Positions 9,775 to 15,610 of a stretch of 64,000 nt of DNA are shown piece after piece. The stretch is from Rossellomorea marisflavi (GTDB lineage: Bacteria; Bacillota; Bacilli; Bacillales; Bacillaceae_B). The DNA lies in contig NZ_CP081870.1 in assembly GCF_022170785.1 (NCBI RefSeq), positions 4,030,001 through 4,094,000 on the forward strand. Direction: 5' to 3'. Positions within the stretch are counted from its first letter, which is position 1. Each line of letters begins with the position of its first letter. Both the position numbers and the translations under genes were made by a program. The notes under the pieces were generated by a model. It saw only the letters and a list, made by a program, of their open reading frames with translations, had not been told where the DNA came from and made no database searches.

Positions 9775-9984
9775 TTTGTAGTTTTAAACAAGGTGGGATT
9801 CCATTTGATTATTATGACTATAAGGATGATGCATACCAATACCCTTACGTTATTATGTAAAAATCAAACGATTATTCATTTTAGCTCCATCCCGATAAAT
9901 AATATCGCACCCCCCCTACTTACATTCACAATGTAATGTTTATCTTTCCATTCACAATATAGCAATCACGCCTTAAAAAGCACA

Positions 9985-10117
9985 TAGTGCAGTGTAGCGA
10001 AGGCTACCCGACTCCTATGGGAATAGCGGGCAGGGTGAGACCCTGCAGGCGCAGCCGAAGCGGCTCACCGCACGCCACATGGAAAGCGGGTGGCCGCAGC
10101 GGAACGAAACGAACCCT
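9985..10117 (+). repeat. Palindromic intergenic repeat, copy B (tandem unit 1)
   Basis: Carries the blocks CGACTCCTATGGGAA, GGTGAGACCCTGCAGGCGC, CGAAGCGGCTCACCG and GGAAAGCGGGTGGCC, so arms pair over about 130 bp. With the 80 bases that follow (GAACCCTTCATCTTTTCACC, a TCAAAAGAGAAG stretch and ACGTACAAGCAAG) it forms a unit of about 212 bp that is repeated directly at 10199. Confidence 0.85.
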
Positions 10118-10198
10118 TCATCTTTTCACCCCTAATCAAAAGAGAAGTGGTTGTAATTCTCCTCACGTACAAGCAAGTGATTTCTTCTCTAAAAGCAC

Positions 10199-10329
10199 AG
10201 TGCAGTGCAGCGGAGGCCACCCGACTCCTATGGGAAATGCGGGCAGGGTGAGACCCTGCAGGCGCAGCCGAAGCGGCTCACCGCACGCCCCATGGAAAGC
10301 GGGTGGCCGTAGCGGAACGGAACGAACCC
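10199..10329 (+). repeat. Palindromic intergenic repeat, copy C (tandem unit 2)
   Basis: Near-identical to copy B over the whole 130-bp palindrome and over the following spacer. A third unit starts at about 10412 (CCAGTGCCGTGTAGCAATGGCC) and is broken off after some 30 bases. Confidence 0.85.
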
Positions 10330-10473
10330 TTCATCTTTTCACCCCAAATCAAAAGAGAAGTCGTTTGAATTCTCCACACGTACAAGCAAGCAATCTCTTC
10401 TCCAAAAGCACCCAGTGCCGTGTAGCAATGGCCTCCACTCCCTACCTATTCAGAGAGGGAGATGATCCTGACA

Positions 10474-10794
10474 TCATCCAGGTTCATCCGCCTCATCGAC
10501 CGGCACTGCAAACTGGACTAGTTCTGGATGTCTCTTTATGTCTTCCTCCACTTTTTGTTTAAGTCCCTCTGTGTCCTTTTCATCCCCTTCTGTTAACTCG
10601 TGAAAAGCGTTTGGATACTTCTTCTGAATTTCCGAGAAATCCACTGGTTCAGTAGTATGTTCCTCTAGTTTTTCAACCGCATTGGGGTACTTCTTTTGAA
10701 GCTCCTCGAAGCTACTTCCATCCACCAGAACATTATCCACTGAAAATGATAAGGTCATAATAATGACCACCATCAAACTACCTAACACTTTCAT
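10474..10794 (-). CDS. Small secreted protein with a duplicated KKYPNA motif
   Basis: A 106-residue protein starting at ATG 10794, preceded by GGGAGGTAAGCGG, a strong ribosome site. The first 22 residues form a hydrophobic signal peptide or anchor without a lipobox cysteine. The mature part holds two copies of a motif, FEELQKKYPNAVEKL near 29-43 and FSEIQKKYPNAFHEL near 53-67, about 24 residues apart, then an acidic helical tail. I do not recognise the family. It is the only gene inside a repeat-rich stretch. Confidence 0.7.
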   Translation of the reverse strand: MKVLGSLMVVIIMTLSFSVDNVLVDGSSFEELQKKYPNAVEKLEEHTTEPVDFSEIQKKYPNAFHELTEGDEKDTEGLKQKVEEDIKRHPELVQFAVPVDEADEPG

Positions 10795-11133
10795 CCGCTT
10801 ACCTCCCTACTCATTTTCCATCAACCGTATTATTTCCAATTCCCCTTATAACAATAGGTTAACCGTAACAAAATTGGTTATTTGTGTAAACTATGAACAC
10901 AAGGAAAAATCACTAACTGTAGTGACTCAAACCACATATGACGGTGTTAAGAGTCAGAAGGATTTTTTTGAAAATGATAAGATAACAGCCAGGCTTTTTA
11001 TCCTAAAAAGAAGCTAATGAGCATCTAAGAGAAGGTACAAACCGAACCGCCCCTTCCCCACCCCTTGCCAAATGGAAAAACGGGGTGGGTTCTTTAACCC
11101 CCGATCTTTGAAGCTATCACTCATGCAAAACTG

Positions 11134-11247
11134 CACAGTGTAGTGTATGGGAATAGCGGGCAGGGTGAGACCCTGCAGGCACAGCCGAAGCGCCTCACCG
11201 CACGCCCCATGGAAAGCGGGTGGCCGCAACGGAGCGAAACGAACCCA
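11134..11247 (+). repeat. Palindromic intergenic repeat, copy D (internally deleted)
   Basis: Same family as copies B and C, but about 20 bases at the left arm (the AGCG..CCCGACTCC segment) are missing, so the sequence jumps from CAGTGTAGTG to TATGGGAATAGCGGGC. The right arm is intact, so the palindrome is one-sided. Confidence 0.8.
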
Positions 11248-11326
11248 TCTTCCATCATCCCCCAATTTTATAACAGGATGGGTTCTTCAACCTCTAATCT
11301 TTGAAGCTAGCCCCCCTTCAAAACCG

Positions 11327-11460
11327 CTCAGTGCAGTGCAGCGAAGGACGACCGACTCCCGCGGGAATAGTGGGCAGGTGAGACCCTGCAGGCACAGCCG
11401 AAGCGGCTCACCGACCACCCCGCAGGAAAGCGGTCGACCGTAGCGAAACGGAACGAACCC
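11327..11460 (+). repeat. Palindromic intergenic repeat, copy E
   Basis: Full-length copy with better-paired ends than B and C: ACGACCGACTCCCGCGGGAA on the left pairs with CCCCGCAGGAAAGCGGTCG on the right. Compensating changes in both arms suggest the fold is kept. Confidence 0.82.
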
Positions 11461-11600
11461 ATCTTCCATCACCTATCAAATTTAAAAACAGGATGGGTTC
11501 TTCAACCTCTAATCTTTGAAGCTAGCCACCCACCAGACTGCCCAAAATGGTTTCCACCCCTCCCCGACAGGGTAACCCTAAAACACAAGGAGGAAAAAAC

Positions 11601-12774: not shown

Positions 12775-12934
12775 GCAAGCACTCCCTTTCAAAGGACTGT
12801 CTAGTAAACTTCTACTTTCCATGTGAAAAAGCCTTCTTCTAGGGGAAAAGAAATGAAATTAGTGCCATCCTCACTTTCAGCTCATGCCTTAATATGGTTT
12901 AATTAGTAGTACATTGGTATGAATAGTGGTTGGC

Positions 12935-12965
12935 AGGTTGTTTTTTTATACCCTTTTTATTCTTT
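12935..12965 (+). promoter_or_regulatory. Promoter-like element shared with the lysis-like cassette (copy 1)
   Basis: AGGTTG at 12935-12940, exactly 10 bases, then CCCTTTTTATTCTTT at 12951-12965. The same elements with identical spacing recur at 13902-13932 upstream of the M15 peptidase gene. If AGGTTG is the -35 box, the -10 box is TATTCT after 17 bases. This suggests a promoter used by the SigO-like factor encoded just downstream, that is, autoregulation. The sigma assignment is inference. Confidence 0.5.
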
Positions 12966-13040
12966 ATATAGTAAAAGCGAGATTTCTCTCTCTTTTTTTT
13001 ACTACAAAACCGAACATACGTTCTAATGGTGGTGAAAAAA

Positions 13041-13616
13041 ATGGACACATTGATGACCCGGTTTTACAAGCATTACCCTCATCTCAAGCATAACAAAGCG
13101 GTCGATTCGTTTATCAGCAAGCAGGAAAACAGAACATTGATCGAACAGTTCCTCCTTGAACCGAACGCTGAAAGGGAATACGAATTGAACGAAGCATTCA
13201 AGTCCCATTATTTTGATATCCGTTTTACGGCTTATGTGAGTTCCTCACTGTATTTCCATAGTGTCAATTTTGATAAGAAGCATCGGACGTATTCCGAGCG
13301 GCATCCTCTCACTCTTGATAAGAAAACCGATCAGGGGGACGGGCAGGCGTTCATCGATCTTGTTCCTGATCAATCGGACAGCCTGTCGCCATTCATGAAT
13401 TACTCGACACTGGCAGAATGCCTTGAGGACGACGATCTTCTCACAGGCTACAGGACGCTTACAGAGAGACAGCAAAGGATCCTTGACCTCGCTTACGTCC
13501 AGGAATGGAGCGACACGGAAATCGCTAGGAGCATGGGGGTATCCCAGCAGGCCATATCCAAGAGCCATAAAAAGGCTTTGAATGCATTACGAATCCTATT
13601 ACAGAAAAAGGAGTAG
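13041..13616 (+). CDS. sigO: SigO-like alternative sigma factor (YvrI type)
   Basis: A 191-residue protein. The C-terminal third is a sigma region-4 helix-turn-helix (LTERQQRILDLAYVQEWSDT, then EIARSMGVSQQAISKSHKKA). The N-terminal part lacks a clear region 2, as in B. subtilis SigO (YvrI), which needs the separate RsoA protein for that job. The start is ATG 13041 after GGTGGTGA; ATG 13026 is possible. A small RsoA-like gene follows after five bases and a yvrJ-type gene lies downstream, as in the yvrI-yvrHa-yvrJ locus. A phage-type sigma such as Xpf is the alternative. Confidence 0.72.
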   Translation: MDTLMTRFYKHYPHLKHNKAVDSFISKQENRTLIEQFLLEPNAEREYELNEAFKSHYFDIRFTAYVSSSLYFHSVNFDKKHRTYSERHPLTLDKKTDQGDGQAFIDLVPDQSDSLSPFMNYSTLAECLEDDDLLTGYRTLTERQQRILDLAYVQEWSDTEIARSMGVSQQAISKSHKKALNALRILLQKKE

Positions 13617-13621
13617 ATGCA

Positions 13622-13837
13622 ATGGGCGCACTTTATGAAATGGTAAAAGAAGCACAGGCTACAGGTGAATATGAAACACAGGTGATTACGACATTCGAAC
13701 CGAAAATCAAGAAATCCCTCTACATGACCCGTGCTGAAAACCGTGATGATCTTGAGCAGGAGCTTAAAATCAAGATTATCCACTATGTGAGGGAGTATTC
13801 GATGGACCGCATTCCTGGACTGTTTGATTTGGAGTAA
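13622..13837 (+). CDS. rsoA: RsoA-like sigma co-factor
   Basis: A 71-residue protein. Its segment ITTFEPKIKKSLYMTRAENR, then DDLEQELKIKIIHYVREY, resembles the start of sigma region 2 (the core-binding helices), the same reading as B. subtilis RsoA. The ribosome site AAGGAG overlaps the stop of the sigma gene, so the two are translated together. It is followed by a strong terminator, so the pair is one transcription unit. Assignment rests on size, region-2 likeness and pairing. Confidence 0.68.
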   Translation: MGALYEMVKEAQATGEYETQVITTFEPKIKKSLYMTRAENRDDLEQELKIKIIHYVREYSMDRIPGLFDLE

Positions 13838-13846
13838 TGACAATCG

Positions 13847-13873
13847 ACCGGCTGAATCCAGCCGGTTTTTTTA
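13847..13873 (+). terminator. Terminator after the sigma pair
   Basis: ACCGGCTG and CAGCCGGT pair around AATC, followed by seven T. Confidence 0.88.
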
Positions 13874-13901
13874 TGCCTTGTTTTCGTGTATTTTCTGTGG
13901 G

Positions 13902-13932
13902 AGGTTGTAGTTCTGCTCCCTTTTCTTTCTTT
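13902..13932 (+). promoter_or_regulatory. Promoter-like element of the lysis-like cassette (copy 2)
   Basis: AGGTTG at 13902-13907, 10 bases, then CCCTTTTCTTTCTTT at 13918-13932. It aligns without gaps to the element before the sigma gene (23 of 31 positions). It lies past the sigma-pair terminator and about 110 bases before the M15 gene, where the cassette needs its own promoter. Confidence 0.5.
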
Positions 13933-14044
13933 AGTAAGTGTAAGGCAAACGAAACGGTCGCGATGAGGTTGGGATGACTTCAATCGCAGTACCGCATCCC
14001 TTTGGTTTGTCTCTTACCATTCATATCATAGGGAGAGATGTTAC

Positions 14045-14677
14045 ATGAACTGGACAAGGACAATGAAGCAAGGTGACTCTGGTAACGATGTTCGAGAATT
14101 GCAAATCCGGGTGGCAGGATGGGCAGCTGCCTCGCCGGCAAAGACTCATGTGGCCGTTGATGGCGTATTCGGTGCAGGGACTGCAGCAGCCGTCAAGCGA
14201 TTCCAAAGCGCTTATGGCCTTACAGCAGACGGCGTTGCCGGTCCTCAGAGCCATACTCAATTGAACGCACTGGAAGCCAGTGACGGATCGACTGCACACT
14301 TCAACTTCTCTGAATTTTATTCCAAGGACGGAAGCACCTTCAATGGAGGGAACGTCGGATCCACTCAGGTCAGGGAGAATATCCGCCGCCTCATGTACAA
14401 GTTGGAAGCACTTCGCAAAAAGCTCGGAAACCCTCCCGTCACCATCAACTCAGGATTCCGAAGCATCAGTCATAACCGCAGTGTAGGAGGAGCCTCGAAC
14501 TCCCAGCACACCTACGGGATCGCAGCGGATATCAACCCTTCCGGAAAGACCCCTTCACAGGTGGCGGAAGTGGCCAAAACATGCGGATTCAGCGGAATCA
14601 TCAAATACAATACGTTCCTGCACGTCGACAGCCGCGCGGAATACTCATACGGCGCCCAAACGTACTACTGGGCTTAA
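14045..14677 (+). CDS. Peptidoglycan-binding M15-type D,D-carboxypeptidase
   Basis: A 210-residue cell-wall enzyme with two parts. Residues about 8-78 are a peptidoglycan-binding domain (GDSGNDVRELQIRVAGW and VDGVFGAGTAAAVKRFQ). Residues about 85-210 are an M15 peptidase, with zinc ligands in SQHTYGIAADIN (His, Asp) and FLHVD (His). It would cleave D-Ala links in peptidoglycan stems. There is no signal peptide, which is typical of phage endolysins that leave the cell through a holin. It heads the cassette with the amidase and two small membrane proteins. Confidence 0.85.
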   Translation: MNWTRTMKQGDSGNDVRELQIRVAGWAAASPAKTHVAVDGVFGAGTAAAVKRFQSAYGLTADGVAGPQSHTQLNALEASDGSTAHFNFSEFYSKDGSTFNGGNVGSTQVRENIRRLMYKLEALRKKLGNPPVTINSGFRSISHNRSVGGASNSQHTYGIAADINPSGKTPSQVAEVAKTCGFSGIIKYNTFLHVDSRAEYSYGAQTYYWA

Positions 14678-14707
14678 ATCAACCTTAAAAACAGGAGGAA
14701 TACCATT

Positions 14708-15250
14708 ATGCCAATCATCGTACTAGACCCGGGACACGGCGGCTCTGATCCAGGAGCCATCGGGAACGGTCTTCAAGAAAAGAATCTTGCTTTAACGATC
14801 GGACTTAAGGTGAAAGCCTATCTCGAATCCAATTACGGCGCGGATGTCCGCATGACCCGCTCCACCGACGTCTTTATCGAATTATCCCAGCGGTCCGCTT
14901 TTGCCAATGGACTCGGTGCTTCTTACTTTGTCTCTCTTCACCATAATGCAGGCGGTGGAACTGGGTTTGAAAGCTTCGTCTATACTGGCACGAGGGAAAC
15001 TGAAACCGGGCGAAGGCAGGATGTCGTCCATGCTGAGATCATGAAGTTCTATTCCCAGTATGGCCTCCGTGACCGCGGCAAGAAGGTAGCTAACTTCGCC
15101 GTACTTCGTGGAACGTCCATGCCGGCCATCCTCCTCGAGAATCTGTTCATGGACAGCGTGAATGACACGAATCTATTAAAAAGTGCATCGTTCATCCAGG
15201 GATTATCGAATGCCATCGGCCTTGGCATTGCCAAAGCACTTAATCTGTAA
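14708..15250 (+). CDS. N-acetylmuramoyl-L-alanine amidase (Amidase_3)
   Basis: A 180-residue zinc amidase consisting of the catalytic domain alone. Signatures are IVLDPGHGGSDPGAIG at the N-terminus (first His and the following Glu in LQEKN), SLHHNA in the middle, and the C-terminal LLENLFMDS catalytic glutamate. It cuts the MurNAc-L-Ala bond. It lacks both a signal peptide and a wall-binding domain, so export would need another route. It lies 30 bases after the M15 gene, with AGGAGG before its start. Confidence 0.88.
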   Translation: MPIIVLDPGHGGSDPGAIGNGLQEKNLALTIGLKVKAYLESNYGADVRMTRSTDVFIELSQRSAFANGLGASYFVSLHHNAGGGTGFESFVYTGTRETETGRRQDVVHAEIMKFYSQYGLRDRGKKVANFAVLRGTSMPAILLENLFMDSVNDTNLLKSASFIQGLSNAIGLGIAKALNL

Positions 15251-15255
15251 ATCCA

Positions 15256-15280
15256 GGGCGGGCTTCCCGCCCGCTTTCTT
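15256..15280 (+). terminator. Hairpin between amidase and yvrJ genes
   Basis: GGGCGGG and CCCGCCC around CTT, then GCTTTCTT. The T-run is poor, so it may only reduce read-through into the two small genes. Confidence 0.55.
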
Positions 15281-15296
15281 ATAAGGAGGAATGATC

Positions 15297-15452
15297 ATGG
15301 ATTATTCTGTGTTCGTCCAATTGCTCGGTAACTTCGGATTTCCGATCGCCGTCACCCTTTTCCTGCTCGTTAAATTGGAGAAGAAGCTTGAGCAGTTGGA
15401 GCAGGCCATTCAAGCCCTGTCCCAGACTTTCTCCAAAGAAGACAGGCAGTAA
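15297..15452 (+). CDS. yvrJ: YvrJ-family small membrane protein
   Basis: A 51-residue protein starting at ATG 15297, seven bases after AAGGAGG. One membrane segment (about residues 9-26, LLGNFGFPIAVTLFLLV) is followed by a charged helix (KLEKKLEQLEQAIQALSQ). This is the YvrJ layout and also that of BhlA-type holin-like proteins. In B. subtilis yvrJ belongs to the SigO regulon. Its place behind two signal-less wall hydrolases suggests a role in their release, which is inference. Confidence 0.75.
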   Translation: MDYSVFVQLLGNFGFPIAVTLFLLVKLEKKLEQLEQAIQALSQTFSKEDRQ

Positions 15453-15460
15453 GGAGGTTC

Positions 15461-15610
15461 ATGAATGTGATATCATATGTATCCAATTTGGTCGCCATCG
15501 GGATTGGCATGGTGGGAATCGGACTTTGGTTGAGTCAGTTCCATGCATGGATGGCTGTGCTGCTTCTGATCGGAAGCGTGCTGATGTTAAGAATGGATAA
15601 GAAGGGTTGA
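15461..15610 (+). CDS. Tiny two-helix membrane protein, holin-like candidate
   Basis: A 49-residue protein. AAGGAGG overlaps the yvrJ stop and the ATG follows at 15461, so the two are coupled. Two hydrophobic segments (about 7-22, LVAIGIGMVGIGLW, and 29-43, AWMAVLLLIGSVLML) are separated by a short loop and end in a basic tail RMDKKG. It is too short to assign by homology. Position and topology fit a holin or holin partner. Confidence 0.6.
   Translation: MNVISYVSNLVAIGIGMVGIGLWLSQFHAWMAVLLLIGSVLMLRMDKKG

Follow-up and report, generated by a model that had tools for sequence, protein, structure and literature searches.

The split sigma factor SigO-RsoA (YvrI-YvrHa) of Bacillus subtilis controls a regulon that consists of oxdC-yvrL, yvrJ and its own operon, sigO-rsoA (PMC8103513). 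Two release systems known from clostridia also combine a sigma factor with a holin-like protein. The UviA-UviB-BCN5 system of C. perfringens (pIP404/pBCNF5603) is UV-inducible, has a LexA site and includes an amidase/endolysin (PMC4459074, PMC9527704), and in TcdR-TcdE, a dedicated sigma factor and a holin-like protein occur together with leaderless cargo and with an endolysin, intact or as a remnant (PMC9527704). Here we describe a cassette of Rossellomorea marisflavi, in which sigO and rsoA precede the genes of two peptidoglycan hydrolases, a YvrJ protein and a further small membrane protein. The cassette is contained in a 64-kb window, i.e. the whole stretch of DNA that was analysed; coordinates refer to its forward strand, and all genes and elements of the cassette are on the (+) strand. 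We consider it probable that the cassette is an SOS-controlled release module that joins the sigma factor to a holin-like protein and leaderless hydrolases.

Like the B. subtilis system, the cassette has a split sigma factor, an autoregulated layout and yvrJ as a target (PMC8103513), but the loci of the B. subtilis group carry OxdC and YvrL, have neither hydrolases nor a LexA box and use other promoter hexamers, whereas the window has a LexA box, wall hydrolases and a structured leader RNA. With UviA-UviB-BCN5, the cassette shares a sigma locus with a LexA site, a one-helix holin-like protein, an amidase and leaderless lytic cargo (PMC4459074, PMC9527704). However, UviA is a sigma factor in a single chain and UviB belongs to the BhlA family, whereas the sigma factor in the window is split, the holin-like protein is YvrJ and the location is chromosomal. 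TcdR-TcdE differs by its other sigma group, its multi-helix holin and its toxin cargo. A scan of YvrJ returned PF12841 and no BhlA match, and because the sigma factor is split and YvrJ lacks that match, the module is not a member of the UviA/UviB or TcdR families. The best reading of these likenesses is that it would be the Bacillales counterpart of UviA-UviB-BCN5 and TcdR-TcdE.

Regulatory elements of the two operons

The gene sigO (13041..13616) encodes a sigma region 4 subunit of 191 aa (Sigma70_r4, E 3.4e-11), whose start was moved to the ATG at 13041 because relatives have no starts upstream of it. It is followed by rsoA (13622..13837) for the 71-aa sigma region 2-like partner, which matches the NCBIfam model NF041489 (sigO_reg_RsoA) with an E value of 4.9e-11 and 42.5 bits, under the curated cut-off of 100 of that model. 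An intrinsic terminator (13846..13874; 9-bp stem within the hairpin at 13846-13867, T tail) separates this unit from the hydrolase operon. An earlier note on this DNA had pointed to an element shared by the two units, AGGTTG-N10-CCCTTTT-N2-TTCTTT, and the two copies at 12935 and 13902 indeed have the same spacing and exceed chance: at up to 3 mismatches, 0.03 occurrences are expected per 64 kb, two copies were reached in 0 of 100 shuffles, and the 4.31-Mb genome has no exact copy besides these two. When promoters of Rossellomorea are aligned, GGTTGT and TTCTTTA(T)A with about 18 bases between them are kept, but the CCCTTTT part is an unconserved spacer, the identity of which is lost even in species with a 95%-identical SigO.

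The conserved core thus describes two SigO-RsoA-type promoters. The first, GGTTGT-N18-TTCTTTATA at 12936..12968, precedes sigO in all 26 genus genomes that have sigO, which suggests an autoregulation of sigO. The second, GGTTGT-N18-TTCTTTAGT at 13903..13935, precedes the peptidase gene of the hydrolase operon in 18 of the 19 M15-bearing genus sequences, and in the remaining one (L061) the -35 region is altered. Rossellomorea genomes with sigO have the pattern at the cassette, and genomes without sigO have scattered matches only. In the Bacillales, for which the counts of neighbourhoods, promoters and LexA boxes rest on 79 sigO loci (73 genomes, 39 genera), the pattern GGTTGT-N19-YYTTTA gives 44 sites and any other spacing between 12 and 29 gives 0-4; these sites mark sigO plus varied, mostly leaderless cargo genes, and the hexamers of the B. 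subtilis-group loci are unlike this type. All regulon searches were pattern-based. The matching promoters, their conservation throughout the genus and their co-occurrence with sigO point to an action of SigO at both sites and agree with the earlier proposal that the sigma pair would switch on itself and the hydrolase unit.

A predicted LexA (SOS) box, CGAACATACGTTCT, is located at 13011..13024. It is identical to the box immediately ahead of the start of pcrA in this genome, and it differs by one mismatch, in the last base, from CGAACRNRYGTTYG, which we take to be the Bacillales LexA consensus. Further matches of the box search in this genome include lexA/yneA, parE and uvrB (names from reading the proteins), which are known SOS genes. 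The box has the form CGAACATA[C/T]GTTCT and lies 29-31 nt ahead of the start of sigO in all 26 Rossellomorea sequences. Throughout the order, GAACN4GTTC is found up to 300 bp upstream of sigO at 57 of the 79 loci (54/73 genomes, 30/39 genera), with a chance level of 0.2 loci in Markov shuffles and of 0.004 per 300 bp in the remainder of those loci.

The box recurs in two layouts. At many loci, the site of the box is a SigA-like promoter, with the SigO -35 beginning 19-20 bp past the start of the box. In the second layout, which is that of the window, the order is extended -10, SigO promoter, hairpin with T-tract and box, the last just upstream of the ribosome site. The putative extended -10 of the window (TGGTTTAAT, 12895..12903) would belong to a basal housekeeping promoter of sigO with no strong -35, and TGNTTTAAT is found 41 bp upstream of the SigO -35 in 26/26 Rossellomorea genomes; the consensus suggests SigA for the basal and the SigA-like promoters alike. 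The leader hairpin with its T-tract (12972..13004, AGTAAAAGC...CTTTTTTTTACT, predicted -9 kcal/mol) has a comparable hairpin in all relatives except one, and it is a possible attenuator or terminator. In the library of papers searched, none joins SigO with LexA and SOS in Bacillus. LexA control of sigO is a prediction from the box, and together with the promoter comparison it makes the regulatory half of the model well supported at the level of sequence.

Hydrolases, YvrJ and the leader of the peptidase mRNA

The hydrolase operon begins with the gene of an M15 peptidase (14045..14677), which has an N-terminal peptidoglycan-binding domain (Pfam PG_binding_1) and a Peptidase_M15_3 domain. The closest solved protein is the muramoyl-pentapeptide carboxypeptidase 1lbu (153 bits). 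An N-acetylmuramoyl-L-alanine amidase follows (14708..15250; Pfam Amidase_3, E 1.7e-43), with CwlV (1jwq) as its closest solved protein. Judged by eye, the N-termini of both (peptidase MNWTRTMKQGD..., amidase MPIIVLDPGHGG...) have no signal peptide, as the earlier note had said. Next come yvrJ (15297..15452, PF12841), which encodes a one-helix holin-like protein of 51 aa, and an open reading frame with a good ribosome site for a two-helix membrane protein of 49 aa without family (15461..15610). All constituents that the note had listed, from the SigO-like gene to the 49-residue protein, were thus found in place. Between the amidase gene and yvrJ, a terminator-like hairpin with a short T-rich tail (15256-15272) may reduce the expression of yvrJ relative to the hydrolases. 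Outside of the cassette, the window contains at 9982-11500 an apparently non-coding repeat family of about 213 nt with at least 4 partial copies, two of them in tandem at 9983-10408.

YvrJ consists of a single helix with a charged amphipathic tail. The protein of the window matches phrog_4898, annotated 'holin', with E 1.5e-5, and so do 30 of a set of 34 diverse YvrJ proteins. This is a likeness to an annotated holin family, from which we infer that YvrJ may form pores. Of the two small proteins that the earlier note had proposed for a holin assay, YvrJ is thus a candidate holin by similarity, and the 49-residue protein has no family and is conserved in the two closest species only; elsewhere, a different two-helix reading frame or none is found at its place. 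A second YvrJ-family protein of 48 aa is encoded in the same genome (L002, C1:2047235-2047336), directly before an SbcD-like nuclease gene and away from any sigO.

The peptidase mRNA has a structured 5' leader RNA (13938..14017), a long covarying hairpin with a GGGAUG loop and a CAUCCC downstream. Two-sided compensatory changes occur in 10 of its 14 pairs, and the covariation score was reached by 0 of 500 shuffles, a kind of count that should not be read as a probability, given the relatedness of the sequences; slid controls scored far lower. A covariance model (R1) gave one match in each of 11 genomes, all with the peptidase cassette, and none in the rest of the 397 Bacillales genomes, and an Rfam search of the cassette and five relative loci gave no family. 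The loop GGGAUG and the downstream CAUCCC are near-invariant. An H-type pseudoknot, in which these two elements would pair while the hairpin persists, was rejected, since a helix of at least 10 pairs would have to be crossed by 0-2 nt; the two elements may instead form an alternative helix or act as an anti-Shine-Dalgarno switch. In the RNAalifold prediction, CAUCCCUUU is paired to the ribosome site, without covariation. A role of the leader as translational switch for the peptidase is plausible.

Conservation of the core and exchange of the cargo

SigO is encoded in the window genome and in 25 others of the 36 genus genomes (51-95% identity), and wherever the flanks are readable the cassette occupies one chromosomal site, flanked by the genes of an SDR protein and of a glucose/sorbosone dehydrogenase (GSDH). 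The hydrolases are gone or broken in seven genus sequences: YvrJ is missing as well in L050, L054, L055, L057 and L058, L062 retains YvrJ only, and L043 retains, besides YvrJ, the remnant of an amidase, so that the set of effectors is variable. Other genes vary, too. Among L041-L058, most relatives encode a 32-aa peptide (MNTFEVLSLMLSFGMFVIAIL...) downstream of yvrJ, or immediately downstream of rsoA if the hydrolases were lost. It resembles ComI/PepG1-type peptides, under the cut-offs of those models, and the window was found to have none. In L043, L045, L051-L053, L056, L059, L061 and L062, yvrJ is separated from the GSDH gene by a nucleoside-hydrolase-like gene, which the window lacks.

In the Bacillales, SigO matches were obtained in 132 of 397 genomes and 49 of 135 genera. 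RsoA adjoins sigO at 76 of the 79 loci, and YvrJ is found up to 2.5 kb away at 71. The genes at SigO-type promoters encode M15 and Amidase_3 proteins, S8 subtilases, glutaredoxin, DUF3238 proteins and several unknowns, and further cargo includes amidases with peptidoglycan-binding repeats (by eye) as well as weak phospholipase A2-like and weak phosphodiester-glycosidase-like (NAGPA-like) proteins. Only one of the listed cargo proteins has an obvious N-terminal signal peptide (by eye). Plasmid copies in Priestia, Virgibacillus, Geobacillus and Lysinibacillus have the same arrangement, several of them with a LexA box. At the OxdC/YvrL loci, OxdC hardly differs from the B. subtilis protein of solved structure; these loci have no box and other hexamers, and B. 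subtilis, where the system was worked out, therefore looks unusual.

Two further groups of loci were observed. A recurrent arrangement of S8 protease, sigO, yvrJ, rsoA and glutaredoxin genes with SigO-type promoters is both chromosomal and plasmid-borne (L261, L264, L124, L126) and may be a peptide-maturation system; at L261, a small cysteine-containing reading frame follows the protease gene. In L147 and L140 (clusters c285, c14), cargo at SigO promoters has cysteine-rich C-terminal domains, one of which belongs to a phospholipase A2-like protein (E 0.004, under the cut-off), and these proteins are possible bacteriocins.

Proposed mechanism and its alternatives

In the release module that we propose, LexA would repress sigO-rsoA until the SOS response removes it. 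Basal transcription would then yield SigO and RsoA, which would amplify their own operon and fire the hydrolase operon via the matching promoter. The products would be the two leaderless peptidoglycan hydrolases, YvrJ and, here, the second small membrane protein, and the leader RNA would add a further gate on the translation of the peptidase. YvrJ would give the folded hydrolases access to the wall, resulting in lysis or leakage in some cells; for this outcome and for a permeabilisation of the membrane by YvrJ, we rely on family resemblance and gene neighbourhood. Other Bacillales would combine the same core of SOS control, SigO-RsoA and YvrJ with other cargo, most of it leaderless. A generalised form of this model, to which we give an even chance, is an order-wide LexA-gated release module on chromosomes and plasmids, in which the split sigma factor would be a two-key switch and YvrJ a holin-like secretion or lysis route for swappable leaderless cargo such as wall hydrolases, subtilases and possible bacteriocins; the OxdC system of B. 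subtilis would then be a derived form that lost SOS control, and the cis-acting RNA of Rossellomorea a third gate.

Several observations weigh against such a module. The R. vietnamensis-type clade keeps sigO-rsoA without hydrolases or YvrJ, and an output of hydrolases and YvrJ therefore is not the sole role of the sigma pair. YvrJ-family proteins exist also away from sigO, some cargo (glutaredoxin, OxdC) is non-lytic, and the B. subtilis-group loci carry OxdC without the box. In addition, the SigO -35 of the window precedes the LexA box by about 75 bp, and repression by LexA would therefore need a roadblock action.

What alternatives exist? SigO-RsoA-YvrJ might be a general non-lytic exporter of leaderless proteins in the manner of TcdE, with hydrolases that in Rossellomorea serve remodelling or the attack of neighbours. 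Holin transport without lysis has been described for TcdE/TpeE (PMC9527704), and the exchange of mostly leaderless cargo among lineages with a constant SigO-RsoA-YvrJ core would fit, as would the resemblance of the plasmid-borne modules to bacteriocin plasmids. However, no targeting or immunity gene was recognised, and a pair of hydrolases with different wall bonds as targets, encoded beside a holin-like gene, suits self-lysis at least equally, so that we regard a purely non-lytic exporter as unlikely, though worth keeping in mind. An acid- or envelope-stress regulon, in which the hydrolases would serve wall turnover and the LexA box would be incidental, is suggested by the B. subtilis regulon (PMC8103513), but it is quite improbable in view of a box that has a fixed position in 26/26 Rossellomorea sequences and is present in 30/39 genera, while OxdC-type loci are a minority without box. 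A domesticated prophage lysis cassette with a worn-away phage origin, as the earlier note had considered, is highly improbable. The hydrolases and YvrJ do resemble phage endolysin and holin families, but no phage genes adjoin the cassette at its constant site (in relatives with long enough contigs), which bears out the note's placement outside any prophage, SigO was absent from viral contigs and gave only two partial weak matches in phage records, the YvrJ of the window was not found in the phage records searched (a composed consensus-like YvrJ query gave weak matches, a hint only), and the peptidase is at most ~43% identical to phage proteins.

SigO-RsoA has so far stood as an oddity, a two-piece sigma factor that was studied in B. 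subtilis with an oxalate decarboxylase as its target. By the comparison presented here, the usual wiring would lead from SOS via SigO-RsoA to a holin-like protein and leaderless enzymes, and B. subtilis would be atypical. If this is true, a function would be assigned to the SigO-RsoA system and to the YvrJ family, a response to mitomycin C would be checkable in about 30 genera, and a Bacillales branch would join the clostridial sigma/holin release systems.

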